A stretch of 50,965 nt of DNA from a virus, in IMG/VR virus record IMGVR_UViG_3300020476_000004, positions 1-50,965 of that record, one strand, 5' to 3'. The notes under the pieces are model-generated. The model saw nothing but the letters and a program-made list of their open reading frames with translations. It was not told the origin of the DNA and searched no databases. This document shows, in pieces, positions 16,401 to 35,617 of the stretch. The stretch's first letter is position 1. Each line of letters opens with the position of its first letter. The position numbers and the translations under genes are program-made.

Positions 16401-19400
16401 CTCGGGAACATAGGGTGGAGAGAGCGTTTTTATATTGGCGAATCTGCCCCCGGATCGCCCTTCATGCGGCTAGTTCGTAGGCAGCTTACGGGCTTCTTTA
16501 CCAAGGTGATGACTCAGCTGGGAGATATGCGGGCACGGGTAGGCACTGAGGTGCGTAGTAACCCCCGTTTGCAAGAGATGGCCCACAGAGTCCACCTCAA
16601 TCTTAAGGCCCTGTATAATGAGGAGTCAGAGGAATTGGGGTTTTTGACACACGACCGACAAACCGAGTTGAAGGCGGGCCGTATGCCAGAGTTTGATCCG
16701 TCCGACCCGAACAGTGGGGTGAAGCAGGCGATTGCATCCTTTGATGCTCTTGATTCTGTGTACCATGCTACTCACCGGGATGTCCCCCTCCCTCCGTTAA
16801 GACGGGTTATTGGTGAGGATTCGGAAACGGATTTCATCCTCGGTTTGGAGCGGGTCTTGAAACGGAATGAGGAAGGGCAGATCTTTATTGGGGCTCATAA
16901 GTACCCACTACCGAAGAGTGGCCTCGTATCGGAAGAGCGGTTCAAGAAAATGTTGGGTAAGCGGGGCGTGACCCTTGCGGTCTGGGAGGCAATGAAGGTT
17001 GCTTACCCAGAGCTGGTTGTAGATCCGGCTGACGTTATTCGTAAAGCTTATAGCAGGGCCGATCTTCAAGCTTCTTTGAGAGAACTTGAGGACAATCTCA
17101 CGTGGGATGAGTACGACCATCGCCAGCGCCCCGCAGAGGGCTCCGAGGTTTATGAGTCCATAGACTCATGGATAGAAGAGCAGCAGGCGCTGGGCATGAC
17201 CCCGCAAGAGATTGACGCTGCGTATGTGAAGGAGGTTCGGGAGGCCGGGGGGCACGAAGTTCTAGATACAGTAACATTGGGGAGGACTGAATCTGAATTT
17301 CAGGATCTAGCAATTCGTACTCGGACCGAGATCAAGAATAAAGCCCGCCGCAATGTGGCCTACACCGACCCCGTGGTCGACGTCCCTAGGTTGGTGGAAA
17401 TCTTGGAAACGCAGGACGTAAATATCCGCACAGTAGACCCCACGGGCGTGATTACCTACAACGTGAAAGAACGCACCGTCGCCGCTGCAAAGGAATGGCC
17501 ATTTATCACCGTAGAACATATCGGGGTGGGCGACTCCCCAGTGGTATACGACTCCAAGGCCAGAGAACTGAAGCAGGAATATGGAGACTTGCAACATGAG
17601 GTCGAAAACCTACTGGAATCTGATCCAGACGCGGCGGTTCCCGACCCACAATATGACACATGGTGGACGCTAGTGACCGACATAGTCGAACTGGGTGAGA
17701 CCGACTGGGACATTAAATGGGAAACCCAAGACGTTGGAGACGGATTCGCGGGAAGAGGCGATGACCTTGCAAGCATCAAGCGTATGCTGACTAAAGAATT
17801 TGGGGTGCAAAATGAGAATACCTTGGAGCAGGTCGCCACTAAAATGAACCGCCTACATGAACTTTATCTACAGCTGGAGGCGCTCTCGGACCCCAACCTC
17901 CACGATAATACAGAAAATTTCGCGGAGAACTATGGGAACGTAGCTCCAGACGAGTACGAAGCGTTTAACCCGCAGACAGGTCTCGGCAACACGGCGGTTA
18001 TCGTAAGGGTAAAAGGAATTCATGAGTACGGCCACACGGATAAGCCTGACACCCTTGTCTGGGTGCGTGGTAAGTTTATTGGGGGTGACGATGGTAAAAT
18101 CATTTTCCGGGTTGATGAGATCCAGAGTGACGCAGCCCAGCGAGCCCAGAAAAATAAGCCTACCTTCAAGTGGAGAGAAGGACTGGTAATTGACAATTCC
18201 TTACATGTATATAGCGGGAGTACGGGAAGCTTTGTTAGGGGAGTATGGCAAGGGCAGGAGCTTGATCGTGTCGATATTCTGCAGGGCGGATCACGGGAAT
18301 TTAGAAGGGCATTATCTAACGAAATAAAAGCGAGCGTAGGTCCTAGTGGGTACGCCCCCTACACTGCAAAGATGCACCGGGATATTACGGAATCGGGCCA
18401 CCCCCTCTACCCACACGCATCCACTATCGGGCTACGTGCTGCCATTACTCATGCCCTGCAGCATGGGGCGGATTCAATTTTCGTGCCCGACGGCGGCACG
18501 GCGATGTTGACTGAGGGGCACCACCTGACCGCGAAGCGTCTATACGGCAATAATGTAGATGAGATCCCTGAGATACGGGGCAAACGTGAATTCCAGTCGA
18601 ATGTCATATCAGGCAGCGTCTACAGACCACCAAGCAGGGAACTCGTCTTTACGGGGAGGGTAGGTTGGGGCTACCCCGACGCCACCGCCTTCGCAGTTCC
18701 CCGTCTTGAAGCTCTGAAGATACCACATGATGGAGAGGAAAGATGGGACTCGATGGTTCGGGAGGCGGTCTTGAGAGACCACGCTGCGAAGGTCAACCGT
18801 CTGCAGGGCCGTGACACCGGAGAACTGGAAACAGGCCTTCCTATCGGAGCGTCGGTAGCTGGTGATCCTGCGATGAAGTTTGAGGTAATGGTCGGGGACA
18901 CTATGGTTAAATATACAACCATGACTGTTCCGGTTAGTCCTGACGCCACCTTGCATCTGTCCCCCGAAAACCAAGCTATCGCGGATGAAGCCCTCCAAAT
19001 GAGCACAATCATCCAGACCGAGAAGGGTATGCGTCTTGCGTATGACAACACTCTGCCTGACGGTATGGCTAAGCTAACCGGGGACTCCGGTACAACTGTG
19101 GACTTAGGTCAGCATAAGTTCGCCACAAAACGAATGGCGGGGGTTGCTGCATTGGCTGATGATGACGGTACCTTTCAAACCGCGATATTAAATCCTGACG
19201 GAACTCCGCACTCAGGCACAACAGGCAAACTCTTCAGCCTTGAAGGTGCCAAGACCAAGGAAGAGGAAGCAGGGGGCATCCCCCTTGTCGGGCGCAATTT
19301 CCGCTTCAAACAAAAGCGGTTCAAGGAGCGGTTCAAGGGAAGAAGAAAGACGAACTGGTATGACCAGCGGCGTGTACCCGATGAGCAGCAGCGGGTGGTC

Positions 19401-22400
19401 GAAGCCGCTCTACGCAAAAAGTTTGTGGAGGGGATTGAAGTGGGGCAGTTTTTTGAGAATGGGAAGTTTCTTCACTACGACGATATAGAAGGTAAATGGG
19501 GCTCCCATTTACCCAAACAATGGGCGGCGATTATTACTCGGGGGAAACAGGACCCGCGGGTAATGCGTATGGTCAAGGACTACGAACGGTGGTCGGAGGC
19601 AGCAAATGCCTTGTTGAAGTCAGACCTGACATTATTGGAGAAGCTCCTCACTAAAGCTTATAAGGGACCGACCACCGCCCCGCCCGACGTTCAGGCTGCA
19701 TTAAACCTCGCAGTGGGCACGACAGATAAAGTGGATGTGGATGTGGAGACAAAGAAAGGAGTGATAGCAAACTTCAAGCGGGTGGTTAAACAGGTGCGTG
19801 CAGAAGTATTAGCCAACAAGCGTCCGGTGGAACATAGTAGTGAAGAGGCTATAAAGAGCCTGAAGGAGACCTTGGTGACCAAGGTCCTTGAACGCCTAAG
19901 GTTTCATAAGATCCAAGAGCTAAAGGCCCAGCAGAAGACGGCGTATAAGTTCTTGGAGCAGGATACCGAGCTAGGTCCCGCTATTGTGGACTCTCTTAAA
20001 GCTACTAGGGCTACTATCGACAGCCTCAGTACGCTCGTCTCCAAGCAGTTCAAACTGTCCGACGTCAACGGCGGTAAAATTGGGCTCACTTTTGATAGTA
20101 TGCTAGGGCTGTACCTCACGCGGGGCTACCGGATTTTCAATGACTTAGCTTACTTGACGGAAGTAATGAACCCCGACGGTAAGTTTCAAGACCGGAGGGA
20201 TGCCGCCCTACCGTTCTTTGAACAGGAACAGATCAAGGTTCACAAGAAGCTGATCGAGCAAGAGCTTGAGGGAGAAATATTGAAGTTAGACAAGGGCATA
20301 GCCTTTACCGACCCCGCAGCTGAAGCCCATGCCAAGGTACTCAAGGGTCTATCCAGCAAGGACTATAAGGCGGAAGTTAACCGCAGGGCTGAACAGAAAC
20401 TTAAGGACAACCCCGAGCTGGCTGCGGGGGCCTTGAATGCTTTTCTGGCTGATATTGAAGCCACTGCCCGAGGACGATCTGAAGGAGCAATGTCTCCTGA
20501 AAAGATGAAAAAGGAACTAGGGGAAGGGGTGTACCAATTATCGCGGGTGGAAGTGGATAACCTGAGAGCCAAGGCTGATATTGATGAGGGGGTCCGGTAC
20601 CTCTTGGGACAGTTTGGACTCCAGAGAACTGAGGATGGTTCTTTTGAAGAGCAAGGGCTCGCCAACCTGCACTCTACCTTAGCGACTCTTACTCGCATGG
20701 CCGAAGGTATTACATTCTGGAATGACCTTAAAACAGTTGGGGGAGTAAAAGACGGAGATTTAGAAAACGCTTTTGTGTACACCTTGGAAGAGGCCCAACA
20801 AGCTGGGTTAACCAAAGAAGGTGCGCGCCCCTATGTTAACGCCCGTACAGGGCACCGACTGACTATGACGTCCTTAGGGGAAGAGGGCGAAGGAGTGGCG
20901 GGGGTATTCGACCCGACCTTCGATATGTATGTCCCCGAAGATCTTTACCAGTCCATGCGGAGGTATAAGAGAATTACACGGGGTAACCTCCATACGTGGT
21001 TAAGTGAACTGAGTAAGGGAGAGAAGGGGGGCGCGCGGCTGGGTTCCTACGCGGCCCACATATTCCTTAAGATGAACGCGTTGATGTTATTTACTAAGAC
21101 GGTTCTTAATGTCCCCGCGTACCACCTCCGCAACGCGATCACAGCTCTGACGTCCTATAGTGCCGCGGCTGCGGTTTCTCCAGTGGGTGTCATGAATGAA
21201 TTCTTCTGGGCGTTTGCGCGGTCTAGGGCCGCTGCCCGAGGAGAAAGCAAAGTAAAGTCCCTAGTCTTTGGGAGAGACCCCCGGATCAAAACTGGAGAGC
21301 AGATCCTCATGCAGCGAATAGGGGTAGACCAAGGAAACATGGACGTTAACTTCCTGTCACAACTGGCTCAGAAGAGTAAGCAAGACCCCTATCAACTGTT
21401 TTATGATGGGTTTCGTGAGATCATGGACCTGCACCCCGCGGACATGACGGAGGAAGGCATGGTTAAAAAAGGCTTATTGAAACTGAAGCGGGGTGCTAAA
21501 GGGGGAGAGAAGTATGTGATAGGTCCTGTGTTCCAGCGACTTTCGGACTTCGCGCAGGGCATCGACGCCGCCGCGAAGATAGCCATGTTTAAGAAGGAAC
21601 TTAAGGTTCTTAGACAGGCGAAGAAGTCTGACCAAGATAATAAGGTGGATACTGGGTATCACAACATGACGGATGAGCAGATGGAATTTGAGGCTGCGCG
21701 GAAGACACGGGCGATGTCCCCCACTTACTCGGAAGCCCCGTTGTTTGCCAAATGGTACCGCAAAGCTAACCCCATATGGGGAGATCCCTTTGGTTCTTTC
21801 TTCCTCGATCAGTTCAGGATCGTCTGGAACCAGAGCATGGGTATCCCAAGCGAAGAACAAAAAAGTGGTAACCCCATTATCCGTAATCGGGGATACCTGA
21901 GACAAACTCTTGCGCTTGGCGTACACTCAGCGACCCCTGCAGCAGCGGTGGGGTCAGCCCTTTTGTTGGGGATCAACCCCACTGATGAAGAGGAAGAGCT
22001 TCTCAAGGCAGCTGCCCCCGCTTGGGGTAAGTTGAATCAGTGGATTTATATGCCGGGGGATGTGGCCAATAAGATATTTGGGTTTATGCCGGGAGCTTCT
22101 TACGACCCCGATGAATTGTACGCACTGGATCTCACGTACATCAACGCCTCGTCCCCAGTCTTTGATGGGGCAACGGCGGGCATACTGGAGGTTTTCCGTG
22201 GGGATTACGACGACGCCGCTCGGAACATAGTCGAAGGATATGTAGGGCGGTTTGTGCGCCCCAGTTTAATAGGGGGTCTGGTGGGTGAAGCGTTTAATAA
22301 CAAAGATGGCCGTGTGTACGATGAGCAGATCGACTCCTTATCGACTAAGGCGTTCAAGTCACTGGGGTACATAGCCCAACGTGGCGTGGAACCGGGGAAT

Positions 22401-22973
22401 GCCCGACGGTTACGTAAGTACAAGGAGTCACAGAAGGCTGATGACGATACCTATAGGGGTACGTTTGAAGAGACACTAACGCAGATCGTCTCGCCTGCTT
22501 CCCCCAGAATAGTTCGTCTGGACATGGCGGTTTACAACTATGCGCGGGAAGCACAGGAAGATCGTCGGGAATTGACGAGCAGTGTCTACAAACAGCTTCG
22601 TGACCCTAGTACAGGGTTAGCAGATGCGGACATTGAGAAGCTGGCCAAACTGATTATCGCCCAGCGCCGGGACATCGACCAACGTCTTGGCCATTTGACC
22701 AAGACCGCGATGGACTTGGGGGCGTTAAGCGCCTCCCGTGAAAGACTCCGCACCATGTTAATGCGAACGAATATTGGTTCCGACCGAGCGGGGGCAATTC
22801 TTGATGGCGCTACCGAACGCTTTATACCTGATAAGAACAATCGGGAAGAATTCCTAGGCCCCGAGAGTCCTCCGTGGAAACGGGAGCGGTTCAATAAATT
22901 TGAGGAAGCCCTTCGCAAGCATGGCCCCCAGTATCGGTTTACCGATCCCGAGACGGGTCTGGAAATACGTTAG
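7452..22973 (+). CDS. Giant 5173-aa virion-associated multidomain protein
   Basis: An uninterrupted 15.5-kb gene. Visible landmarks: an N-terminal unknown region; glycine/alanine-rich hydrophobic stretches near residues 706-740, 920-945 and 1045-1065 that could contact membranes; an acidic coiled-coil and EEAAEEAAEE low-complexity zone around 1080-1600; a zincin motif HEVGH at 2396-2400; a second metallopeptidase-like helix EELVHAVDE at 2880-2888 with Glu in place of the first His; an EIQSD motif at 3556-3560 and a YDNTLP motif at 3864, which together mark a domain common in large polyvalent phage proteins; and a C-terminal TVLNVPAYHLRNAI segment of the same families. Such proteins are usually ejected with the DNA and degrade, modify or protect. 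Function is inferred; the open frame is certain. Confidence 0.9.
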   Translation: MALTPAFLKSLPSYSEWKEDNPVDRLGRPIRADNEFNLRKGYADFVEKSTPQATPDQRAMLREKDLKHLAESPEIESEEEFLAALKRYNAISTREKTERIFRDTVDGGVRGDAPAYYFLGDALNGQATRQQLEADEFDATEFLRISDKMEDIASGRGNKPQIDKRPRHIELGISLEEYYKNPQLQRITFTSPAERDPEAFTISETEQAYYDRFAEMVGQYSEEVWPDYKKLVQRQVGAVAIDVPRINPVTKETENMFVLMDDVPDDQHEAAVEKSIQAGLLHPDFKENALKALKAKDKDGNLEVDVRNYYEALQKVQSAANIADTPVEGESRLRGLPLDVVDPESVQHNFKDSLRRLSRQAALSHSKHGGVKLPFVRSPKGQILPQTELIEGKATLFKPGELLQQDYKNLLDQFRGAYRGSVEHLSDEVVLKALQDTVYNMAVSSGLMPFHEGKKKLPKLEGAVGAAIKGVAYPFVSERDVGSRLAGNIYTTEYGARLVHPRLLVAKNDFAALKRNAEKLGTTEDKLELERLTYLENNYDRFLDDIFNSTADIRNSWITHVGKEASAPFSLDREEAEKVAKGRIDVEILANWLDTEKGTNWINRLGQSAIQGSGDLVGMALMGGGKLVNKATGVWGDAADFWTGKGSGYDRVDISDDPVNPEGLEKAGAHILLRSAKERQANRAVAGMFGRKHSFMDVGSTMAVPLIIDLSASAALAVPTAGIGSTAYASAAFAKYGLKATAKSYLHGAVGMGLRNILREGAEDSVQVALEKAYAKGFLKTLPSVKVIGKGADKWLPSSSAVGFRSPYAVGTRGGKRAQISFANLPKGVLPKRYVENIIKNSGSVNKLSGVLPSSMRAEAATDALVAISKGIKAGQYPAISAPAFLRSAGHTYGDIHMALQGAVGPDGKPLSPAEIHDRAFGGSVMAGMFTVATVVGLQRIGMGGLEDWVTGGATIGQVRRVFEKLRTKKYLTDDEAVIDMIKQVVGEGLKSVSGRFKGPIARGALYESLQEGSDAWLNTFARSFAMEMTSEDDWNRPFMTRVHEMLMGAAYGLGLGAMGGALHRVRRPQSPIDQMRTQQDVLAKLSLKVHDRLVSKLEETGSTETAATVKEIFSQLDLMARASPEKDVRKKLESEKAATETGENYEENKAAEIIERLAELHANPLPSDAPVEAKEKLRDEAAELWQEYQILKGKLEETPESAPEAEAEAVGEKTESTTESPEEPAQSEEDQQLDNTQFTLTMLGLVDLEADLLAAANDPLSTPEEDRQTLIDLINEQYDKVKDNTRETEGIKGRQKYAQARDYLIAQITTGVTEKAAGTAQKGASTESIQSAIDEVLSEDADAADAKLASGTGEAVITRTAKEELIEGLKQILEAENTARPVGEQVTPEIIGVEANRMVSRLMESVRRDLKETEDLAKFDSLEEELRGRLEDAQKAHDGVKAAARKGGRREYQGGVSKGYFTETPNEGTIAGLQEVIDTRRDEIARGVGTNKSQPTRKQQLIILESLLETLQGFRKMNLRREQIKGQQDEERRIREFQQAEEARARMEAEKQAAEEAAEEAAEEDADIAGKDEADAPAAEDSQETVSLQRETFVQNMIRAGALKSGSAGEHSVAVMGLPKRLNLSSAERGQTGEEIREGVKIEFPSLSFNENNRPVTYDYLREAYAAQGVIINDDQWATVRSSGVKFGGSNIWLIKDIDGGIFDDGRGERTGHDVVLFNNDPRSMRKAFDDVGHESIMVPNGFNRTKVNKTFRGDKTGRSLSQDTGVVKDIFYPVELDTETETSITGLTARTYGATPEEITYKISSRAQTLMEFINPDTPIIVRLDETDPVDAKAPQSVRESSIKAYKREFTAWLNGNVEAGKTPINKEALGKILRADSSTTREGIRSLYFTGLSARADRAVVEVALLQALANKAEGQSDADAMMSVLKERITLSEKTTSTDEFKSAVTAFESLIGRDVTFESDKTTLAFVLSEFLMGDRLATAGPLGVEMEADPDLDIVDWVLGRVADTVRKSATEGKLPRNESAADPEAWSPPREGGTLRRKDPPPVPNLYNPKNDLLNLQTKYAQLLNSDNVQRKASGTMAHLDDADSGDGVQALLAEEGPASSVDEPRVSEELEQAAARLENLPEAEVVMTGVRQALATTLAESEKVVEALETLQEGILTDLDLESPPLKSPLETYQQVERLLHAAFVSPEHQEYVRGQLAERRAKFLETFVIETGKSEQGLLALMDLVASRIVNLKPQDATQLKIIRSWFSKPEESIAEASLSQIVEVVMAYRAERAAKAPSYVDGVHRPMIEYRNTEDIAELGLVDGDMSTVIEALRNMEGRVDVIGDDPMKKLASTLFLEYEEFLNTLDIRIIKGAPYFAGSYDEELGMIFINTNGRYGEGVSSVLLHEVGHAIFQKIMTTPDEDLTPPQRAARKEMRVVYERAKEQWVKAKSKGKADPVMDYVFGTGRATLRARRNRIVDPLTGLAQIDFTGGDLRRVRGMLASGDISSSSERELDLSQPTAPDIILPRAQGSSFEEFYTVWMSSTSFQAATRKIAVQNRSLFRRIMDGILKLFGKTPGVYTEAEQALEAVFDFTNHRNSNEVTQLYEEQRGEIVGAVAHYVKEQNFLRSRYNALRGTFGLLSDFDPLLGDPTGTVGRADYTNVNMPGYPYGGVFDLQDTVWWQTRTSFKTSDGAGLQVERDLFEEYSKAAQEWHKAAIDLQHDPDFGTKSNSIDYDDYVGKRDEFIRKANLVVFERLLKDEVSRRVPSGMRIVYLNSDSPLLKSTDGAIDNSDQIAFQTWSDTIDVGDLRSVAPAPLMVVVLDNAMDSVHTEVGLVGMSEFLDRGDPKQFDKVIPPGPTYITNFGPRPSSLARRDNALRFRDNIEALVTEELVHAVDELSSTDAEIDQVIEEIGIEGLIEMSAEYHLVSPRFERERERRGYVPKERDTHDAVVATMKDPNDPDHSNTRRIILAEGVRAEVQKRITGRPSEDVSLGNIGWRERFYIGESAPGSPFMRLVRRQLTGFFTKVMTQLGDMRARVGTEVRSNPRLQEMAHRVHLNLKALYNEESEELGFLTHDRQTELKAGRMPEFDPSDPNSGVKQAIASFDALDSVYHATHRDVPLPPLRRVIGEDSETDFILGLERVLKRNEEGQIFIGAHKYPLPKSGLVSEERFKKMLGKRGVTLAVWEAMKVAYPELVVDPADVIRKAYSRADLQASLRELEDNLTWDEYDHRQRPAEGSEVYESIDSWIEEQQALGMTPQEIDAAYVKEVREAGGHEVLDTVTLGRTESEFQDLAIRTRTEIKNKARRNVAYTDPVVDVPRLVEILETQDVNIRTVDPTGVITYNVKERTVAAAKEWPFITVEHIGVGDSPVVYDSKARELKQEYGDLQHEVENLLESDPDAAVPDPQYDTWWTLVTDIVELGETDWDIKWETQDVGDGFAGRGDDLASIKRMLTKEFGVQNENTLEQVATKMNRLHELYLQLEALSDPNLHDNTENFAENYGNVAPDEYEAFNPQTGLGNTAVIVRVKGIHEYGHTDKPDTLVWVRGKFIGGDDGKIIFRVDEIQSDAAQRAQKNKPTFKWREGLVIDNSLHVYSGSTGSFVRGVWQGQELDRVDILQGGSREFRRALSNEIKASVGPSGYAPYTAKMHRDITESGHPLYPHASTIGLRAAITHALQHGADSIFVPDGGTAMLTEGHHLTAKRLYGNNVDEIPEIRGKREFQSNVISGSVYRPPSRELVFTGRVGWGYPDATAFAVPRLEALKIPHDGEERWDSMVREAVLRDHAAKVNRLQGRDTGELETGLPIGASVAGDPAMKFEVMVGDTMVKYTTMTVPVSPDATLHLSPENQAIADEALQMSTIIQTEKGMRLAYDNTLPDGMAKLTGDSGTTVDLGQHKFATKRMAGVAALADDDGTFQTAILNPDGTPHSGTTGKLFSLEGAKTKEEEAGGIPLVGRNFRFKQKRFKERFKGRRKTNWYDQRRVPDEQQRVVEAALRKKFVEGIEVGQFFENGKFLHYDDIEGKWGSHLPKQWAAIITRGKQDPRVMRMVKDYERWSEAANALLKSDLTLLEKLLTKAYKGPTTAPPDVQAALNLAVGTTDKVDVDVETKKGVIANFKRVVKQVRAEVLANKRPVEHSSEEAIKSLKETLVTKVLERLRFHKIQELKAQQKTAYKFLEQDTELGPAIVDSLKATRATIDSLSTLVSKQFKLSDVNGGKIGLTFDSMLGLYLTRGYRIFNDLAYLTEVMNPDGKFQDRRDAALPFFEQEQIKVHKKLIEQELEGEILKLDKGIAFTDPAAEAHAKVLKGLSSKDYKAEVNRRAEQKLKDNPELAAGALNAFLADIEATARGRSEGAMSPEKMKKELGEGVYQLSRVEVDNLRAKADIDEGVRYLLGQFGLQRTEDGSFEEQGLANLHSTLATLTRMAEGITFWNDLKTVGGVKDGDLENAFVYTLEEAQQAGLTKEGARPYVNARTGHRLTMTSLGEEGEGVAGVFDPTFDMYVPEDLYQSMRRYKRITRGNLHTWLSELSKGEKGGARLGSYAAHIFLKMNALMLFTKTVLNVPAYHLRNAITALTSYSAAAAVSPVGVMNEFFWAFARSRAAARGESKVKSLVFGRDPRIKTGEQILMQRIGVDQGNMDVNFLSQLAQKSKQDPYQLFYDGFREIMDLHPADMTEEGMVKKGLLKLKRGAKGGEKYVIGPVFQRLSDFAQGIDAAAKIAMFKKELKVLRQAKKSDQDNKVDTGYHNMTDEQMEFEAARKTRAMSPTYSEAPLFAKWYRKANPIWGDPFGSFFLDQFRIVWNQSMGIPSEEQKSGNPIIRNRGYLRQTLALGVHSATPAAAVGSALLLGINPTDEEEELLKAAAPAWGKLNQWIYMPGDVANKIFGFMPGASYDPDELYALDLTYINASSPVFDGATAGILEVFRGDYDDAARNIVEGYVGRFVRPSLIGGLVGEAFNNKDGRVYDEQIDSLSTKAFKSLGYIAQRGVEPGNARRLRKYKESQKADDDTYRGTFEETLTQIVSPASPRIVRLDMAVYNYAREAQEDRRELTSSVYKQLRDPSTGLADADIEKLAKLIIAQRRDIDQRLGHLTKTAMDLGALSASRERLRTMLMRTNIGSDRAGAILDGATERFIPDKNNREEFLGPESPPWKRERFNKFEEALRKHGPQYRFTDPETGLEIR

Positions 22974-23193
22974 GGTCACCCGAAGCATACTTGCGCCGGA
23001 TCACGTTCAAGCGACTAGCTATCTTCTTGCCGAGATCATCGGGGTCCATGTGACCGAAGAACGGATACCCGAGGGTATCATTCTCTATCGGGTAGATCCG
23101 TATGGAATCAGGGATCACTTCGTCCCCCGCTACCACACCGTCGATCATGATCGGCAACCCGTTGGGGCGGAACTCGCGTACCATTTCAATCAT
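22939..23193 (-). CDS. Hypothetical protein, 84 aa (last gene of minus operon)
   Basis: Unrecognised small protein with a beta-rich N-terminus (GLPIMIDGVVAGDEV, SIRIYPIEND) and a basic C-terminal helix. Its 3' end overlaps the 3' end of the giant gene by 35 nt on the opposite strand, so the two operons are tail-to-tail with no intergenic terminator. Its ATG overlaps the stop of the upstream gene (ATGA). Confidence 0.72.
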   Translation of the reverse strand: MIEMVREFRPNGLPIMIDGVVAGDEVIPDSIRIYPIENDTLGYPFFGHMDPDDLGKKIASRLNVIRRKYASGDPNVFPDPSRDR

Positions 23194-23492
23194 AGTTCCG
23201 GTATCTCGGTTGGGGTTAATAGCATGAGCGCCTGTTGGAGTTTATCCAAGTCCTCTTCTGCTATGGGTTTGTCCAGTTCCCACGGACCATAGCCACAGGC
23301 GATTGCGATTGCGTGTGCATAACTGTCTCGCTTTTCCGCACTGTAGGTTGTCTTTGATCGCAGGGACATATTGGGGGTGTAGGCAATCACCGCCCACCCA
23401 TTGACTGCTTCGTTGTCAGGTTTAGACTGCATCTTAACGGGTACTCCGTTAATATCAATCACCTGCATATTTATCCTTGGGGGTATACTCAT
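23190..23492 (-). CDS. Hypothetical protein, 100 aa
   Basis: Unrecognised. It starts by ATGA overlap with the upstream gene; an internal Met (residue 9, MQVIDINGVPV) is an alternative start. The sequence mixes beta (WAVIAYTPN) and helix (EEDLDKLQQALMLL) and shows no motif of known function. It is part of a run of four overlapping small genes. Confidence 0.72.
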   Translation of the reverse strand: MSIPPRINMQVIDINGVPVKMQSKPDNEAVNGWAVIAYTPNMSLRSKTTYSAEKRDSYAHAIAIACGYGPWELDKPIAEEDLDKLQQALMLLTPTEIPEL

Positions 23493-23794
23493 GGTCTCTT
23501 GAAGGTCATTCCGTCCGAGAAGGGGATGGGTTTGCGATCAGGTCCGACAGATACCCACCACTTGAAGTCTTCCTGACTCACCCAGAAGTCTAAGCCGTAG
23601 GCACTGGCGGTTTCGTTCATCCGTCTTTTGGTGGTGGCGGTTAGCCAGCCACCGGAGTTCAACGTAATGGTGTCCGGTGTGAACTCCACTATGTTCGTAT
23701 CGTGGTAGCGAACGGCGGTCTTCAGGCCCATCTTGTCAGACAGGTCGAGTACCTTCGTCGCAGTCTTCCCCTTGAGGAGATTACTTATGCTCAT
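23489..23794 (-). CDS. Conserved phage protein of unknown function, 101 aa
   Basis: Contains the pattern ITLNSGGWLTATTKRRMNE and then WVSQEDFKWWVSV, a combination I recognise from small uncharacterised proteins in many unrelated phages (GGW-x-T-x-TTK-x-RMN). The family is usually encoded in early regions and has no assigned function. Overlaps by 4 nt with the downstream gene and by 14 nt with the upstream one. Confidence 0.78.
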   Translation of the reverse strand: MSISNLLKGKTATKVLDLSDKMGLKTAVRYHDTNIVEFTPDTITLNSGGWLTATTKRRMNETASAYGLDFWVSQEDFKWWVSVGPDRKPIPFSDGMTFKRP

Positions 23795-24038
23795 TTGTTT
23801 GTTCTTTGTACTTGGTTAATGCCTCCTCCATACGGGCAGCGAGGTCCGCCAACCACGGTCCAGTGGACACGGCGTTGATGGTGAGGCTTGTGCTTATGTC
23901 TCTGATCTCACGGAGGAGATCGGCGGTTGCTTCTCGTTCCCTGTGGAGTTCTTCCCGTAACTCAGCAAGCGGTAACTGCTGCTGTGATATACGCTTGATA
24001 GCGGGCATCCATTTACTTACGTCTATTGGGTCACTCAT
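23781..24038 (-). CDS. Hypothetical helical protein, 85 aa
   Basis: Unrecognised, largely alpha-helical and acidic (QQLPLAELREELHREREATADLL), so probably a coiled-coil dimer. No enzyme motif. Tightly packed: 14 nt overlap with the next gene, 6 nt after the previous stop. Confidence 0.7.
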   Translation of the reverse strand: MSDPIDVSKWMPAIKRISQQQLPLAELREELHREREATADLLREIRDISTSLTINAVSTGPWLADLAARMEEALTKYKEQTNEHK

Positions 24039-24044
24039 AATTCA

Positions 24045-24203
24045 TTAACGGTCGTTGTCCTTTGGCTTACACCCCACGCCATCTTCATCCATGTTACAGG
24101 GTTCAGGGTTCAGGGTTAAGAGTTCAGGGTTGTCTGTCCGCTTCCGTCGCAGGACAAGAAGCAGGGTTAAGGGTACAAGAATCAGGAATAATAATTCATT
24201 CAT
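24045..24203 (-). CDS. Small single-pass membrane protein, 52 aa
   Basis: Starts with a hydrophobic helix (NELLFLILVPLTLLLVL) followed by RRKR, a classic N-out/C-in membrane anchor. The soluble tail contains the peptide NPELLTLNPEPCN, which is the translation of the local 7-bp tandem repeat (units GGTTCAG/GGTTAAG at 24096-24130 on the plus strand), so the repeat has been absorbed into the reading frame. The start chosen is ATG 24203, 4 nt after the upstream stop; an in-frame ATG at 24230 lies inside the upstream gene. Confidence 0.6.
   Translation of the reverse strand: MNELLFLILVPLTLLLVLRRKRTDNPELLTLNPEPCNMDEDGVGCKPKDNDR
24096..24130 (-). repeat. Heptamer tandem repeat inside a CDS
   Basis: About four tandem degenerate copies of a 7-bp unit (plus strand GGTTCAG, GGTTAAG, AGTTCAG). 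They lie in frame inside the 52-residue membrane protein gene and encode L-N-P-E-type residues. Same family as the repeats at 24373, 24660, 24866, 31215, 35014, 37563 and 39820. Confidence 0.75.
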
Positions 24204-24207
24204 GGTT

Positions 24208-24372
24208 TCAATATGGTTTGTGTATAACATATGCTTGGTGTCTTTCCCCTTCGTAGTTAAACGTAACGAGATCGCGTCCGTTAATGTCTTCCTCTATGTT
24301 AAGGAACTCGACATTATCCAGACGGACCTCCTCTCCATCCAACGTGACGTAGGGTATGTATGGGTGACTCAT
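24208..24372 (-). CDS. Hypothetical protein, 54 aa
   Basis: Minus-strand frame beginning MSHPYIPYVTLDGEEV and ending HQAYVIHKPY, stop at 24208. It is acidic with alternating beta pattern and looks like a real small domain rather than chance reading. The ATG at 24372 comes immediately after a heptamer repeat array that contains the stop of the upstream gene. Function unknown. Confidence 0.6.
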   Translation of the reverse strand: MSHPYIPYVTLDGEEVRLDNVEFLNIEEDINGRDLVTFNYEGERHQAYVIHKPY

Positions 24373-24394
24373 GATTCAGGAATCAGGAATCAGC
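24373..24394 (-). repeat. Heptamer tandem repeat at gene junction
   Basis: Three 7-bp units (plus strand GATTCAG GAATCAG GAATCAG). On the coding (minus) strand each unit supplies a TGA, and because 7 is not a multiple of 3 the three units stop all three frames. The upstream HTH gene terminates inside it and the next ATG (24372) directly follows. Confidence 0.85.
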
Positions 24395-24625
24395 ATCCTT
24401 AACTCGGCAGACGGGGGGATCGACTTTGTTAAGCCCTTGCTGAATACACTCGTCGAGGGACCAAAGGTCGATGAGACGTCGCCCCCGCTTAGCATTCGGT
24501 CTTTTCACAAGAGACGACTGGATAAGCCCGTCTCTTATGAAATCCCAGAGGTAGCGTTCCGAAAGTCCGCTATACTTTGCCGCATCTTTGAGTGTGACCC
24601 ATCTTGGTTGTAGTTGTTGGTTCAT
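24383..24625 (-). CDS. Excisionase-like winged-helix DNA-binding protein, 80 aa
   Basis: Carries a MerR/excisionase-type HTH: WVTLKDAAKYSGLSERYLWDF (residues 9-29), then a wing with RRLIDLWSLDECI. This is the usual layout of helix_turn_helix_17/Xis-like regulators (about 60-80 residues). The gene may be a regulator or accessory protein; no integrase is visible nearby. It ends in residues DADS encoded by the heptamer repeat. Its start codon overlaps the stop of a 10-codon leader ORF. Confidence 0.78.
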   Translation of the reverse strand: MNQQLQPRWVTLKDAAKYSGLSERYLWDFIRDGLIQSSLVKRPNAKRGRRLIDLWSLDECIQQGLNKVDPPVCRVKDADS

Positions 24626-24654
24626 TGTATTGTCTTTTCTATTGTCAGGTTCAT
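24622..24654 (-). CDS. Leader mini-ORF A, 10 aa
   Basis: Ten codons, MNLTIEKTIQ, whose TGA overlaps the ATG of the HTH gene as ATGA. The same mini-ORF is duplicated exactly at 24828-24860 before a different gene. Likely role is translational coupling; the peptide itself may be irrelevant. Expression is not proven. Confidence 0.4.
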   Translation of the reverse strand: MNLTIEKTIQ

Positions 24655-24680
24655 GTGTCGATTCAGGAATCAGGATTCAG
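24622..24680 (-). repeat. 59-bp leader cassette, copy A
   Basis: Exact 59-bp direct repeat of 24828-24886 (offset 206). In minus orientation it consists of three heptamer stop units, a spacer CGACAC, a 10-codon ORF (MNLTIEKTIQ) and the ATG of the next gene. It includes the ends of two adjacent genes and so behaves as an intergenic module. Confidence 0.92.
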
Positions 24681-24831
24681 CATCCTGTGCAGCCCACCGA
24701 GTTGACCACGCTCTCCGTGAGCCGTTGGTTGTTCGCCAGAACTTGCCATCTTCAAAGATGGAATAAGTCCCATGCCGCCACGGTTCTGTCGGACTCCATG
24801 AGAACTTAACTATTCTTCGTGTGGTAATCAT
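24670..24831 (-). CDS. Hypothetical basic protein, 53 aa
   Basis: Minus-strand frame starting MITTRRIVKFSW and rich in Trp and Arg (GKFWRTTNGSRRAWSTRW). It ends AES within the heptamer array, exactly as its neighbour ends in DADS. The aromatic/basic pattern suggests a small nucleic-acid-binding or beta-barrel fold; no family recognised. Its ATG overlaps the stop of leader mini-ORF B. Confidence 0.62.
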   Translation of the reverse strand: MITTRRIVKFSWSPTEPWRHGTYSIFEDGKFWRTTNGSRRAWSTRWAAQDAES

Positions 24832-24860
24832 TGTATTGTCTTTTCTATTGTCAGGTTCAT
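24828..24860 (-). CDS. Leader mini-ORF B, 10 aa
   Basis: Identical in sequence to leader mini-ORF A. Its TGA overlaps the ATG at 24831. Perfect conservation is explained by recent duplication, so conservation alone does not prove selection on the peptide. Confidence 0.4.
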   Translation of the reverse strand: MNLTIEKTIQ

Positions 24861-24886
24861 GTGTCGATTCAGGAATCAGGATTCAG
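24828..24886 (-). repeat. 59-bp leader cassette, copy B
   Basis: Second exact copy of the 59-bp module (see 24622). It lies between the DNA-glycosylase-sized conserved gene at 24869 and the 53-residue gene. Three heptamer units at its upstream end hold the upstream gene's stop codon. Confidence 0.92.
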
Positions 24887-25342
24887 GAACCAGTCAGGGG
24901 TATCACGCCCCGACCACTTGGCGAAGTAACTCTTCTCACCGTTGTAGTAGGCACGGTAAGCAGTCACTGCGAATACTCGTTTGTATTCTTCCGGCATGGC
25001 CTGAGCGAATGGGGTGAGACCCTGCTTGCTCAAGCCTAGCTTTGAGTAGTTAGCTGCACACCAGTGTATGACATCAGTTGACTTGTGCGTCTTGCCATAA
25101 CGGTAGGTGTACTCGCGGCACATCTCATCGGCATGGGTGAGTAGCCAATCATAGTTGTCCTTGGATTCCCTAGCCCAGATGGTGCATGGGTGATTGTAGA
25201 AGGCGCGCTTGTATGGGGCATCACCCTTGGGGTAGGCCGCACACAACATCTGCGCTGACTCAAGGATCATCTTGACCACATGCTTGTCGCACAGTTGCTG
25301 TGCGGCGGTGGTCGGATCTTTATCTACGACAAATATATTCAT
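24869..25342 (-). CDS. Conserved phage protein, 157 aa (CDKHVVKMILE family), function unknown
   Basis: Begins MNIFVVDKDPTTAAQQLCDKHVVKMILESAQML, an N-terminal signature (D-x-DP-x-AA-x4-CDKHVVKM-x-LE-x-AQ-L) that I know from many lytic phage genomes where it is annotated only as hypothetical. Conserved polar residues C, D, K and H in one helix, and HPCTIWARES further on, suggest an active site, but I do not assign a reaction. The C-terminus NPDS comes from the heptamer repeat. The start overlaps the stop of a 13-codon mini-gene. Confidence 0.75.
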   Translation of the reverse strand: MNIFVVDKDPTTAAQQLCDKHVVKMILESAQMLCAAYPKGDAPYKRAFYNHPCTIWARESKDNYDWLLTHADEMCREYTYRYGKTHKSTDVIHWCAANYSKLGLSKQGLTPFAQAMPEEYKRVFAVTAYRAYYNGEKSYFAKWSGRDTPDWFLNPDS

Positions 25343-25380
25343 GCGTCTGGGTCAGGGACAGGTTTATGTTGGCCGCTCAT
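25339..25380 (-). CDS. 13-aa bridging mini-gene
   Basis: MSGQHKPVPDPDA. Its ATG overlaps the TGA of the upstream 148-residue gene (ATGA) and its own TGA overlaps the ATG of the downstream gene (ATGA). It exactly fills the 34-nt gap, letting ribosomes pass from one gene to the next without a free intergenic stretch. Peptide function unlikely; coupling role inferred. Confidence 0.45.
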   Translation of the reverse strand: MSGQHKPVPDPDA

Positions 25381-25823
25381 GTTTTAGGAACTTCGTATTC
25401 ATCACAGAACCCGAAGGATTCGATCTCATTGTTTTCCTCTATCTGTCTAATACGATCTCTCATTGCGCCACAAAACTCAGGAACTGGGATGTCCCCGAAG
25501 GATTCCTTCGACTCAATGGATGCCGCGCAATCAAACATATAGTTCATTAACGCACCCGACTCATTTGTATGCTCCAATACCGGTGGCTTGTTCGCGGTTA
25601 CACGAATCACGGTACGGGGTGGGGGTGCATCGGGATTGATGCCTCGGGCGGCTACCTGATTAAGGAGATGCACAATGTTGGCACGGGTATTCTCAATGTC
25701 CCATGTTACAAACTGCGCTTCCTCAGGGAACTCACGCTTAACTTCTTTCAATGCTCGTTGAGCGGCGGCTTTTTTGTCAAACCACTCGCGGTTATTGGAA
25801 CAGCTTACTTCGTATATTTTCAT
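25377..25823 (-). CDS. Hypothetical protein, 148 aa
   Basis: Unrecognised. N-terminal half has beta/alpha character (MKIYEVSCSNNREWFDKKAAAQRALKEVK cut here into a short domain), the middle has a proline-rich NPDAPPPRTVIRV segment, and the C-terminal helix MRDRIRQIEENNEIE is acidic. No motif known to me. Part of the coupled minus operon. Confidence 0.72.
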   Translation of the reverse strand: MKIYEVSCSNNREWFDKKAAAQRALKEVKREFPEEAQFVTWDIENTRANIVHLLNQVAARGINPDAPPPRTVIRVTANKPPVLEHTNESGALMNYMFDCAASIESKESFGDIPVPEFCGAMRDRIRQIEENNEIESFGFCDEYEVPKT

Positions 25824-25844
25824 GTGTTTGGTATCTATTTTGGT

Positions 25845-27182
25845 TTATCCAAGGAGAGTCATGGTTGATTCAGCTTCTGCTTCTGCTTCTGCTTCGATAG
25901 TCGCAGCAGGGTCGGCCATCTCGGTAGCCGCCGCGCTCCGAAGAACCGCAAGGGATTCCTCGTTCTCATCGGACAGGCTGAACCCGAAGGGCTTAGGCTC
26001 GGTAAAGCCCAACCGCTCAAACAAGTCTACAAACATAGACCAGTTGGCCCGTAGCTTGGTAAAGCTCGGTATCCCCAGCCCCATGTAACAATCATTGGGT
26101 TGGTATATGGTGTCCTCGCTACACCGCTGATCCCAGTACCGCTGTGTAATTCTACAGGCTTCTTCATAATCCGTACGGTACCGATTATCTTCGTGGACGC
26201 AACGGGTCTTCCAGTTCTTGTCCACTACCTTATACAGATCCCGGTCGCTGTGATAAGAATTGTTCACAATAAACGGGAACTCCTCCTCTACAATGTGAGA
26301 CAGGACATGAGTAGACCCGCTCCCAACTGTATCTGTGTCGACTCGGTCGGAACTGTACGCCTCACCCAAGGATTGGGAGAAGGCGATCCACCTATCCACA
26401 TACTCAAGAGGCTCCTCGGTATGCACCGCTTTCTTGATTGCCTCAAGCGCGGTCTCAAGTTTCTTCAACTCTGGTGAGTTAAGATACTGGGTCGCCGCTG
26501 CCCCGAATGAATTGCGAGCGTTGACCCGCACCGCACAGTTGTTGGTGAGGTAATGCGCCCAGCCCAGTTGCCAGTTGCGTTCTGCCATGTCCTCCCCGCA
26601 CACATCCACAAAGACTTTATGGAATACCCTGAGGAGTATATCCATAGGATCTACAGTACGCGCCCTTGCGGGGATACGCACACCGTGCATGGCTGCAGTT
26701 GGGAGTTGCAGGATACAGGACTTATACAGCTTGTCGTATTCCCACTTGGCATCGCGGCGAGCGAACAAGGTATGGCTCCTGAACAGGGACGACCAGCTAC
26801 CCGGTTCATCTGAGCCAACGAACAACCATCGTTGGTTACCCTCAGTCCCATCATCTACCCTCTTGGTTATGGAATCAGGGAGGGCTACCACAAGTGGTAC
26901 CCAGTCCTTGATCGTCATGTCGTCGTCGGCAAGGAAGTCGTTGGGGTTCTGATAGGCCCGCCCCAGAGGGTGGGTCGCGTCATCCCTGAGACTCCTCTCC
27001 TTTGCTTCCTTGCCCGTCACGGCGTAGTCACGATCTTCCTCCCCGTCATCGCGGTAGATGTCGGCACCCGTGATGCTTGACTTGGCCATCAGTACCCCGT
27101 TACGGGCGCGGACCAGCGTGGTTTGTGCATTGCACTTGAAAGGTTCGCGGTGGAACCATTCGATTACTTCTTCGGTTTTCAT
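25845..27182 (-). CDS. Hypothetical protein, 445 aa
   Basis: One of the longest genes of the early operon and not recognised. It starts MKTEEVIEWFHREPFKC, contains several Trp/Tyr/His-rich segments (ERNWQLGWAHYLTNN, SYHSDRDLYKVVDKNW), and ends with an acidic AEAEAEAEAES tail coded by a GCTTCT hexamer repeat at 25876-25899. No P-loop, zinc cluster or membrane helix is visible. It lies directly downstream of the VWA/MoxR genes, so it may act with them; this is only positional. DUF932-like membership was considered but not supported. Confidence 0.75.
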   Translation of the reverse strand: MKTEEVIEWFHREPFKCNAQTTLVRARNGVLMAKSSITGADIYRDDGEEDRDYAVTGKEAKERSLRDDATHPLGRAYQNPNDFLADDDMTIKDWVPLVVALPDSITKRVDDGTEGNQRWLFVGSDEPGSWSSLFRSHTLFARRDAKWEYDKLYKSCILQLPTAAMHGVRIPARARTVDPMDILLRVFHKVFVDVCGEDMAERNWQLGWAHYLTNNCAVRVNARNSFGAAATQYLNSPELKKLETALEAIKKAVHTEEPLEYVDRWIAFSQSLGEAYSSDRVDTDTVGSGSTHVLSHIVEEEFPFIVNNSYHSDRDLYKVVDKNWKTRCVHEDNRYRTDYEEACRITQRYWDQRCSEDTIYQPNDCYMGLGIPSFTKLRANWSMFVDLFERLGFTEPKPFGFSLSDENEESLAVLRSAAATEMADPAATIEAEAEAEAESTMTLLG

Positions 27183-27184
27183 AT

Positions 27185-27490
27185 TTACTTAGCTTGGTTT
27201 GTGTTGTTTGGATTGACGGACAACAAATGAACCGTCTTTGCATTTATATGTGCTTCTAATACTTTGTCATCCAGTTGAACTGGAATAATTGAAAAGGTGT
27301 AGCGGTTGTTAAGCCATGTGGCTAAGGCTACACGATTGTCCACAGGGACAGAGATCGTACTAAGTTTCAGGTTCGTGACGGCACCGCGCAGATCATCGTG
27401 AAATGTCTGCGCGGTACCTTTATCAGCGAACCATACCTCAGTAACGTCCCCGCCTTTGTGCTGGCGGAAAGCTACCAAATGTATGTTCAT
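27185..27490 (-). CDS. Hypothetical protein, 101 aa
   Basis: Unrecognised small protein with beta strands (MNIHLVAFRQHKGGDVTEVWF, TISVPVDNRVALATWL) and no motif. Its ATG overlaps the upstream VWA gene's stop as TGATG, and it ends 2 nt before the next ATG, so it is a cotranslated part of the VWA-MoxR cluster. Confidence 0.72.
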   Translation of the reverse strand: MNIHLVAFRQHKGGDVTEVWFADKGTAQTFHDDLRGAVTNLKLSTISVPVDNRVALATWLNNRYTFSIIPVQLDDKVLEAHINAKTVHLLSVNPNNTNQAK

Positions 27491-28848
27491 CAGGTGGTAG
27501 CTTGGTCGATCTGGTAGAGGTCGATGACGTCCCCGAACGGATACTCGTCAGCCCCCTTACCCCAAGTGAGCCAGAGGACTGGCACGTTGGGAGGGGAATC
27601 GGGGAAAACTCCCCAACCATCGGTCACGTACACGATCACCCGCGGGTCCACTTGGTTTTCCTCGATCCAGTCGAAGGCGGGACGGAAGTCCGTACCACCA
27701 CGGCCATGTATCGTCAGGTCAACTGGTTCGTATGGGGCATACTCCCGTACCTTGGCAACCTGACAGTCTACATCCATATGAATGAGCCTGTCGGCGTTGA
27801 GGGTGTGAACTGAATCCTGAATAACGGAACAGGTCACTTCGTGGACACGGGTGGGCATAGACCCACTGGTGTCATTGACGAACACCAAGGAGCCAAGACG
27901 CTCGTCCTCCATACCCGCCACACATATATCGTGGTTGGCAAGGAACCGCTTGTCGGGCTTGGTTGAGCCTTCGTCCATACAGAACTCGTCTGCATACTTC
28001 TGCAGAATATCCTTCATGTTCAAAGGAGACTTCTGCAACTGCTGAAGTTTCTCCAAGAACTCACCCGGAGCATCACCGCGCAGCTTGGAGGCATGGATGG
28101 AGGTAGATAGAATCTCCCGCCACTTGTCCTCCTGCTCGGCAATCTCCTCAGGCGTACCCTTGGGGATCTCAAACTCACCGGGCGACACAGGCTCGGGTAA
28201 GGGTTGGCCACCAGATCCACCTTCCGGTTTGTCTGGCTTAGTGCCGGAACCATCCTTGGATTCACCATCCTTGGAGTCGTCTGGCTTGGTGCCTTCACCT
28301 TCCTCACCACCTTTACCATCACCATCACCTTCGCTCTCACCTCCTCCTTCGTCTCCCTCAGGAGGCTTAGGTGGTGGCGGCGGTGGCGGTGGCGGTGGCA
28401 ACTCTTCCGCTTGGAGGATCTTATAGATAGCCTCCGCGGCCTTTGTCTTGAACCGCTCAAGATCAACACACCCATCCTTAGGTAGGACGATTGGTCTGCT
28501 GGCTGTGTTACTATACTCAGTCAGCAGGTTGTTGATCTCATAGTCACACGCTCTGTTGGCCATTCGTCGATCCGCCGAAGCGAACCGGACTAGGTGACCG
28601 AACAGTGGGTGACACACCTCATGAATGAGGAGGCCGACCAGTTCATAGTCGTTCAGTGTCGCTGTGAAATCAGGATTAAACCTGATAACACGACCATCCG
28701 TACAAGCCGTGGGGATTGTACGGTCCAATACTAGCGGCATACCCGCCATTGCTGGTGCGAAGAACGGGTGGTCCTTCATCACCGTGTTAGTCGCGGACTT
28801 TAACCGCGCTCGTTGCAGCTCATCTAGAGCTGTGTTGTCTGCACTCAT
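27490..28848 (-). CDS. VWA-domain protein with N-terminal metallopeptidase-like domain
   Basis: A 452-residue two-domain protein. The N-terminal domain has a zincin helix LLIHEVCHPLFGH (HEVCH at 76-80), as in the putative metallopeptidase half of DUF2201-type proteins. A disordered linker follows (ten consecutive prolines, then G/E/D/K-rich to about residue 225). The C-terminal domain is von Willebrand factor A-like, with a MIDAS-type motif VNDTSGSM near 335 and VIVYVTDGWG near 415. Such proteins pair with MoxR-family AAA+ ATPases, here encoded 0.25 kb upstream, as chaperone-like complexes that remodel or insert cofactors into targets. Presence in a phage early operon is unusual. Confidence 0.87.
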   Translation of the reverse strand: MSADNTALDELQRARLKSATNTVMKDHPFFAPAMAGMPLVLDRTIPTACTDGRVIRFNPDFTATLNDYELVGLLIHEVCHPLFGHLVRFASADRRMANRACDYEINNLLTEYSNTASRPIVLPKDGCVDLERFKTKAAEAIYKILQAEELPPPPPPPPPPKPPEGDEGGGESEGDGDGKGGEEGEGTKPDDSKDGESKDGSGTKPDKPEGGSGGQPLPEPVSPGEFEIPKGTPEEIAEQEDKWREILSTSIHASKLRGDAPGEFLEKLQQLQKSPLNMKDILQKYADEFCMDEGSTKPDKRFLANHDICVAGMEDERLGSLVFVNDTSGSMPTRVHEVTCSVIQDSVHTLNADRLIHMDVDCQVAKVREYAPYEPVDLTIHGRGGTDFRPAFDWIEENQVDPRVIVYVTDGWGVFPDSPPNVPVLWLTWGKGADEYPFGDVIDLYQIDQATT

Positions 28849-29137
28849 AAGATATAAGTTCTTTATGCAATAATGCTATAGCTTCGAAGTCATCTCTGTG
28901 TTTTACCCACAGTTCGTAAACGTGGGGTGACCCATACACTTCCATGCGTGGTGCCATGATTACTATGTGCTGCTCTGCTCCGTTGGCTTTCAGCCACTTC
29001 CTGAACCAGAACATCACAAGCCCATCCCACTCCGCGCCACGTAGTTCGTGGTCAACGGAAGCGGGATGGTTGTGAAGGATGTGGTCTACCAGATCACTAC
29101 TTGAGAAGCTCACCTTTGTGTTTGAGTTGCCATTCAA
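28820..29137 (-). CDS. Hypothetical protein, 105 aa
   Basis: Unrecognised protein between the MoxR-like and VWA genes, overlapping both (41 nt and 29 nt). The long overlap with the ATPase suggests the true start may be a GTG at 29113 (VSFSSSDLVDHIL). It has a Trp/His-rich central part (DHELRGAEWDGLVMFWFRKW) and hydrophobic C-terminal helix. Position implies a partner or adaptor of the AAA+/VWA pair. Confidence 0.65.
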   Translation of the reverse strand: MNGNSNTKVSFSSSDLVDHILHNHPASVDHELRGAEWDGLVMFWFRKWLKANGAEQHIVIMAPRMEVYGSPHVYELWVKHRDDFEAIALLHKELISYECRQHSSR

Positions 29138-30233
29138 TCAAGGCACGCTCAGTACTCAAGTCTTTTCTCTTGCGACGGAGGCGGTTGCCAACCATAGACT
29201 CCATAGACTCCAGATCATCTGGACTATTGAGGTTAGGGTCGGTCAACCTGTGACTCAGGAGAAGTACATCTGACAGATTGTCCTTCTCAGCAAGGGTCAC
29301 CAGCTTACTAGCGACGATGTACTTGAGGTCGGGGCGTTCCACGATCCGTCTCAGGTCACAGTTACGGGCATCGGCCAGCAACTCACCGACATCACCACAG
29401 GTAGCATAGAGCTGCACGAAGGTGACAAACTCCTGCCCAGCCTTGGCACCTATACACCCACAAACATCTGCCTTGAACAGGCGGGTGTTGTCGGTAGCTA
29501 CCATCTCGGAAGGATCGGAGTACGTGGTGAGGTACTGGTCCAGCTTGGTGTACGAACGGGAAGTAGACTGAGCCTGCTCCCCATCCCACTTGTCCATGTT
29601 GTCACAGTAGAGGGACTCGTTGTGAGCCTGAAGGAACCCGTAGACATACTCAGTCTGCGCGTTATCCATCAACCAATCGAGGGTTCCCTTGATCGAGGGT
29701 TCCAACTGATAGATGCTGAACCTGTCCATGACTGAAGCAGGCGCACGGCTAGCCTGACAGTGATGCTTCTGCCCATTGGCAGCGGCCACCATCATGGTGT
29801 TGCGGGGGAACTTGTAGGTTCCAATCATGCGTTCCAGCACAGCCTGCTGGGCTACCTTGATAACCGAAGCGTTGGCGTTGAACAGCTCATCCCAGAAGAT
29901 GAGATACTTCTTGTCGCAGTCGGGTTCGGGGAACACCTCGTCGATGTACCAAACCATGCGTTCCTTCTCACGATCAGGGACACCGAAGCCCTTGATGTCG
30001 TTGAAGGTATTGTAGGACAGGTACACAGGGATGTATATCATCCCATTGTCGTGTGCAAACTGCTCTACCTGCGCGCTCTTACTGACACCGGGAGGGCCAA
30101 CAAGAAGTACGGGTTTGTATTTACCGGCTTGTTCACCGGTAGGATTATCTGCCCGCCATGCCCGCCTAAGGATAGGCTGGATCATCTCGGGGGTACTGGT
30201 TGGTAGCGGGACCACCGCATCATTTTCACTCAT
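29097..30233 (-). CDS. MoxR-family AAA+ ATPase
   Basis: A 378-residue AAA+ protein. Walker A GPPGVSKS lies at 46-53, Walker B is KKYLIFWDELFNA near 110, and the sensor-1 strand NTMMVAAANGQ is near 145-155. The C-terminal lid is helical. The arrangement matches MoxR/RavA/CbbQ-type ATPases that work with a VWA partner, here at 27490-28848. In bacteria these pairs mature or remodel protein complexes; a phage copy may act on a host complex or on virion assembly. The target cannot be read from sequence. Confidence 0.88.
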   Translation of the reverse strand: MSENDAVVPLPTSTPEMIQPILRRAWRADNPTGEQAGKYKPVLLVGPPGVSKSAQVEQFAHDNGMIYIPVYLSYNTFNDIKGFGVPDREKERMVWYIDEVFPEPDCDKKYLIFWDELFNANASVIKVAQQAVLERMIGTYKFPRNTMMVAAANGQKHHCQASRAPASVMDRFSIYQLEPSIKGTLDWLMDNAQTEYVYGFLQAHNESLYCDNMDKWDGEQAQSTSRSYTKLDQYLTTYSDPSEMVATDNTRLFKADVCGCIGAKAGQEFVTFVQLYATCGDVGELLADARNCDLRRIVERPDLKYIVASKLVTLAEKDNLSDVLLLSHRLTDPNLNSPDDLESMESMVGNRLRRKRKDLSTERALIEWQLKHKGELLK

Positions 30234-30246
30234 ACGTATATACTGG

Positions 30247-31170: not shown

Positions 31171-31214
31171 TTGCTTATACTTTGATTCCTTATGTGTGGT
31201 TAACCCTACAACCT

Positions 31215-31241
31215 GCAGGAATCAGGATACAGGATGCAGGG
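31215..31241 (-). repeat. Heptamer tandem repeat in a 89-bp intergenic gap
   Basis: Units on the plus strand: GAATCAG, GATACAG, GATGCAG. It lies between the HExxH gene (stop 31260) and the start at 31170, so it does not hold the upstream stop here. A 20-codon minus-strand ORF could start just before it and run through it (stop before 31190). Confidence 0.75.
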
Positions 31242-31259
31242 TTGGTTTGCATTGTGACG

Positions 31260-31571: not shown

Positions 31572-31574
31572 AAT

Positions 31575-32231: not shown

Positions 32232-32236
32232 GTCTA

Positions 32237-32692: not shown

Positions 32693-32697
32693 AACGC

Positions 32698-33813: not shown

Positions 33814-33816
33814 GCT

Positions 33817-34440: not shown

Positions 34441-34523
34441 CCGTTACCAACGGAAGTCGGTGGGTCGACCACCACCTAGTTCCTAGGAAAGGATTCGGCT
34501 TACCAAGCCCAGCCCACCACTAC

Positions 34524-35602: not shown

Positions 35603-35617
35603 ATTATGTAGTTCATT

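Follow-up and report, generated by a model that had tools for sequence, protein, structure and literature searches.

Why does the same short sequence stand unchanged before two different genes of one phage? The window analyzed here is a stretch of 50,965 nt, which is a virus record (IMG/VR record IMGVR_UViG_3300020476_000004). Two of its segments, 24622-24680 and 24828-24886, agree at every one of their 59 bp (minus-strand sequence CTGAATCCTGATTCCTGAATCGACACATGAACCTGACAATAGAAAAGACAATACAATGA), with a start-to-start distance of 206 bp, and chance is excluded as the origin of an exact repeat of this length. We conclude that the two 59-mers are probably the direct repeats bounding a single gene, acquired recently and horizontally via recombination between gene-junction sequences.

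Layout of the duplicated junction

The genes of this region are arrayed on the minus strand in the order 445-aa ORF, 148-aa ORF, pyrimidine-dimer glycosylase gene, 53-aa ORF, HTH_17 gene and 54-aa ORF. The 59-mer is found at the junction of the glycosylase gene and the 53-aa ORF, and again at the junction of the 53-aa ORF and the HTH gene (Table 1). On the minus strand it is composed of 21 nt of heptamers (three CTGAWTC units), a 5-nt spacer and a 33-nt mini-ORF of 10 codons, the TGA of which overlaps the ATG of the next gene in the motif ATGA. Direct comparison confirmed what a preliminary description made from the sequence alone had reported: the identity over 59 bp, the three heptamers with TGA in three frames, the mini-ORF MNLTIEKTIQ, and the ATGA overlap with two different downstream ORFs. 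The module has indeed been copied so that it ends exactly at the start codons of two different genes. Only the spacer, given there as 6 nt, had to be corrected to 5 nt (GACAC), counted from the last full heptamer to the mini-ORF.

The heptamers were also rightly described as gene terminators, as the stop codons of the preceding genes lie inside the arrays. The stop of the glycosylase gene is the third TGA of its array; for the 53-aa ORF, as for the HTH gene, it is the second. Three successive genes are capped by heptamers with stops in all frames. Any three units stop all frames because seven is a multiple of three, plus one. The nearest homologues of the glycosylase end soon after a common W-F, while the window array adds LNPDS and a stop. 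Among 80 related loci, no three-unit heptamer array was found beside the glycosylase gene. As for the rest of the window, a single ORF of 5173 codons occupies positions 7452-22973 on the plus strand, about 30% of the record, and a 45-bp unit is present at 31325-31414 in two tandem copies that are 91% alike.

Table 1. Features of the duplicated junction and of the heptamer arrays in the window
Feature	Position	Strand	Remarks
59-mer, copy 1	24828..24886	minus	precedes 53-aa ORF; three heptamers, 5-nt spacer, mini-ORF, ATGA
59-mer, copy 2 (identical)	24622..24680	minus	precedes HTH gene; exact G001 match over 59 nt only
Mini-ORF MNLTIEKTIQ, copy 1	24828..24860	minus	
Mini-ORF, copy 2	24622..24654	minus	
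Pyrimidine-dimer DNA glycosylase gene	24869..25342	minus	PF03013, phrog_624; 98.3% nt identity to G001
53-aa ORF (53 codons), read as acquired horizontally	24670..24831	minus	no Pfam match, no PHROG match
Helix-turn-helix (HTH_17) gene	24383..24625	minus	95.1% nt identity to G001
Donated stretch	24686..24834	minus	149 nt identical to G004; 24686-24832, 147 nt, identical to G003
27-nt end of 53-aa ORF (AGGATGCTGAATCCTGATTCCTGAATC)	24660..24686	minus	equals 3' end of G001 HTH gene, unlike donor end
Heptamer array closing glycosylase gene	24866..24889	minus	
Heptamer array closing 53-aa ORF	24660..24683	minus	
Heptamer array closing HTH gene	24369..24396	minus	third array, missed by the preliminary description
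CCTGNNN arrays (CCTGAAT, CCTGATT, CCTGTAT, CCTGAAC)	24093-24131, 24369-24396, 31216-31240, 35012-35029, 37558-37597, 39813-39842	minus	

Relatives of the window and the joints of the 53-aa ORF

An exact search of 2.9 million viral contigs with the 38-nt core of the 59-mer yielded one other contig, G001, which carries it in a single copy. There the glycosylase gene, one 59-mer and the HTH gene directly adjoin, without the 53-aa ORF, and the 206 bp by which the window exceeds G001 at this junction correspond to one more 59-mer and the 53-codon ORF. The two are collinear over much of their length, with about 90% identity upstream of the locus and 92.7% identity in the 54-aa ORF. In a third relative, G002, the whole block from the glycosylase gene to the 54-aa ORF is missing; G002 also holds at 12010-12137 a 129-bp insert relative to the window, the start of which looks tRNA-like. 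The contigs are metagenome assemblies, and the sampling of related contigs suggests a marine phage.

The 53-aa ORF was found in two further, more distant phages, G003 and G004, where it lies among other genes; annotated phages gave only weak matches (E 4 to 9). Elsewhere, alignments over 300 nt between the window and G003 are about 58-78% identical, with short ones up to 87%. The copy of the ORF in G003 and G004 is associated with neither the heptamers nor the 59-mer.

The joints of the ORF can be read from these sequences. Identity to G003 and G004 begins at or just before the ATG (AATG or ACAATG), and the 5' limit of the donated stretch is the ACAATGA around the start codon. At the other end the donor match stops at GCACA, after which the window continues with GGATGCTGAATCC and the donors with AGATGCGGCAACC. 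The 27-nt match to the HTH gene of G001 starts at the last A of the donor match, and past it comes GACACATG, known from the junction of the glycosylase and HTH genes. The additional 206 nt therefore comprise the body of the incoming ORF, an HTH-type tail with heptamers, and the resident leader. Note that the 27-nt match is in part the 21 nt that the arrays behind the glycosylase and HTH genes of G001 have in common, so that AGGATG alone points to the HTH tail; the HTH tail of the window itself differs from the match by one base. The window matches G001 exactly over 239 nt, from within the glycosylase gene to the end of copy 1 of the 59-mer, which is thus the resident junction.

According to the proposed history, the ancestral junction would be the one still found in G001, with the glycosylase gene followed by the heptamer array, the leader and the HTH gene. 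A 53-codon ORF from a phage like G003 or G004 would have been spliced in exactly at the start codon, at the shared ACAATGA, and its 3' end joined at the shared GATGC to the tail of the HTH gene with its heptamer array. This array would then lead back into the HTH leader, which would leave leader and array present twice. The simplest route may have taken two steps: unequal exchange between the identical 21-nt arrays flanking the HTH gene would have doubled the leader and the HTH gene, and the first HTH body would then have been replaced by the incoming ORF. The array identity in G001 appears sufficient to bring both junctions together. A leader-HTH tandem, the intermediate of this route, was not found, and the same product could also have arisen in one event with several template switches. 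The history is weakened by the shortness of the microhomologies at the two ends of the ORF, 5-7 nt. We infer the order of the steps, the recombinase and any expression of the ORF. The direction of transfer, into the window, is judged from the chimeric tail in the window and from the tail common to G003 and G004. Expression of the neighbouring genes would be preserved, since a start codon is the point of entry for the insert and any frame that runs into the array is brought to a stop.

Alternative explanations of the repeat

The preliminary description had taken the 59-mer for a self-contained translation-junction element, in which the array would end the upstream gene in any frame and the mini-ORF, acting by coupling, would restart translation of the next. 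In the full form of this reading, the module spreads between junctions because of this function. Each copy does end at the ATGA of a different gene, the upstream genes do terminate within the heptamer array, and coupling is plausible in these phages: in a survey based on simple ORF calls, motifs resembling Shine-Dalgarno sequences were nearly absent from the window (2 of 58 starts) and, in the window as well as in G001 and G002, same-strand genes were most often joined by ATGA. The search of related phages that had been suggested for this purpose did find the 59-mer in G001, but as a single copy before the same HTH gene; the module was found before no other gene in the viral contigs or in annotated phage and plasmid records, and its core is absent from those annotated records. 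Of 148 ATGA starts in five related genomes, 21 (14%) are preceded by an in-frame mini-ORF that terminates at the TGA of this motif, a share not clearly above the 12% of shuffled leaders. With the core in one other of 2.9 million viral contigs and the mini-ORF near its shuffled rate, copying for the sake of translation is unsupported, and we regard it as improbable. The extra 59-mer arrives with a horizontally acquired ORF and is explained without selection for a module; insertion of one ORF, rather than the spread of a translation element, accounts for the duplication.

For the mini-ORF, a role as an A-rich, unstructured leader is more likely than a coding one. Leaders in these phages are rich in A, which makes up 53% of the final 30 nt in the leader of the 59-mer, and the 59-mer folds at -0.9 kcal/mol (z +1.57), less structured than its shuffles. 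Judged by its composition, it could well serve as an efficient initiation region of the A-rich, unstructured, Shine-Dalgarno-poor kind. Three other candidates were rejected. The leader halves, searched separately in the viral contigs as possible remnants of a deleted gene, were found in G001 only. A promoter inside the 59-mer was represented by one 9-of-12 match, in a region where 4 promoter-like matches were found against 2.2 expected, though a promoter of a non-sigma-70 type at the locus is conceivable. RNA structure in the 59-mer was discarded owing to its weak folding, and an Rfam scan of positions 22000-40500 returned no match.

Another explanation is that the common ancestor of the window and G001 possessed both 59-mers and the 53-aa ORF, which G001 recently lost. 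Recombination between the 59-bp repeats would give exactly the sequence of G001, and such a loss may have come later in the course of the history proposed above. As the sole explanation it is unlikely: the origin of the repeats is left unexplained, and an ORF identity of 147/147 to phages this different points to recent transfer. A gene with a 59-bp repeated element also recalls the '59-base element' of integrons, and perfect direct repeats flanking an insert would suit transposition with a 59-bp target duplication. Site-specific insertion of either kind is nevertheless extremely improbable, as the 59-mer displays no imperfect inverted repeats of the attC type (-0.9 kcal/mol, z +1.57) and neither of its strands contains a GTTRRRY core site, the 53-aa ORF, with no transposase or integrase match, is all that the inserted DNA encodes, and the donor copy is devoid of both heptamers and 59-mer. 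Finally, the assembly may have joined pieces that do not occur together in one phage. The 59-bp repeat forms a loop in an assembly graph, so the number of 206-bp units is uncertain and the copy number of the 59-mer in the phage could differ from the assembly. A chimera, however, would require long shared words at the ends of the ORF, where the microhomologies are only 5-7 nt, and we consider an artefact very unlikely.

Heptamer arrays, gene junctions and related systems

Short tandemly repeated heptamers (STRR-like) occur in cyanobacteria. The arrays found here resemble them as intergenic heptanucleotide repeats, CTGAWTC in this case, that are also present in many unrelated contigs, and differ in that they close genes with stops as well. 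Arrays of 3 to 15 CTGAWTC units were detected in viral contigs and in bacterial genomes of many phyla (L009-L084, L093-L117). Intergenic ones have a same-strand gene upstream in 46 cases versus 9, a count in which many contigs look like near-copies. Assignment of a host from the heptamer was abandoned, the 25 matches being spread over genomes of many phyla and uninformative. All 19 occurrences of CCTGNNNCCTG are on the minus strand, with none on the plus strand. The CCTGNNN arrays of the window lie mostly at gene junctions of the minus-strand region, part of them common to G002 and part absent there. Several show features of their own. At 31210-31250 (minus strand) there is a strong hairpin (-21.7 kcal/mol, z -3.74) whose upper part consists of the heptamers and whose sequence is nearly identical in G002. 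The array at 35012-35029 adjoins the edge of a 242-bp insertion in G002. A small hydrophobic ORF (MNELLFLILVPL...) at 24045-24230 (minus strand) has its tail lengthened by a heptamer array relative to the G002 version, which ends with DDPKP.

Gains and losses at gene junctions were also seen among the relatives. G003 has one whole ORF more than G004, directly before the 53-aa ORF and flanked on each side by a copy of AATGATTA, which is the start-codon sequence in both places. In G002, 563 bp are inserted where one gene stops and the next starts, and TGAACAA is repeated there. Among 17 simple indels of the relatives, a set based on simple ORF calls in which some events are counted more than once, an end lies no farther than 10 nt from a start codon in 7, and no farther than 10 nt from a stop codon in 9, each against 0.8 expected from random placement. 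Breakpoints favour gene junctions, not specifically starts. This bias is no proof of mechanism, because selection against broken genes gives the same pattern.

Gain of a gene flanked by direct repeats has already been described in mycobacteriophages, and the present case is of that kind. In LRRHood, genes 43-46 form a 1.35-kb segment between 29-bp direct repeats, and relatives have this repeat only once (PMC3029335). Common to both cases are an extra segment with a short perfect direct repeat on either side, a single copy of that repeat in relatives, and the placement of one repeat at the end of a gene and of the other upstream of a gene. The acquisition in LRRHood could not be reconstructed, whereas here the identical ORF is visible in other phages and the insert is one small ORF that entered at its start codon. 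Gene 68 of Island3, compared with Brujita, has its 3' end in common with a neighbour via a recombining sequence of about 50 bp (PMC3029335); it is likewise a single small ORF, present or absent, with a 3' end resembling that of the neighbouring gene. In the present case, by contrast, the repeat takes in a heptamer stop array as well as the leader, as far as the start codon of the following gene. The hallmarks of such gains are all found at this locus, namely flanking repeats of 59 bp, the single copy in G001 and the ORF in G003 and G004. What is new is that the apparent donor is visible and the chimeric 3' end readable.

Other repeats at gene junctions fit less well. Start Associated Sequences of cluster K mycobacteriophages and cluster EF Microbacterium phages (PMC3203893, PMC7302621) also lie immediately upstream of the starts of different genes, in one orientation and in a non-structural region. 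These are 13 bp long, with about 10-19 copies per genome and a Shine-Dalgarno core in cluster K, while two 59-mers are present in the window and one in G001, without AGGAG. The promoter-early stem-loops of T4-type phages (Arbiol 2010), in the part of their account given in PMC4503421, are similarly repeated junction sequences that help genes to shuffle. The 59-mer differs in having no hairpin and one promoter-like match, the scan being near chance level.

Two explanations of phage mosaicism are under debate, random joining followed by selection and recombination at shared short junction sequences (PMC3029335, PMC3945230). With the recipient state, the apparent donor and the product all available at this locus, the joints of a single acquisition are resolved down to the base. 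A more far-reaching and, at present, doubtful idea is that heptamer stop arrays and start-codon leaders serve this phage group as a functional docking site for new genes, where ORFs would enter at ATGA and be capped in any frame, each insertion regenerating the array-leader unit and building an integrase-free row of captured genes. If the arrays are such docking sites, they would show how small genes may be gained without harm to their neighbours.
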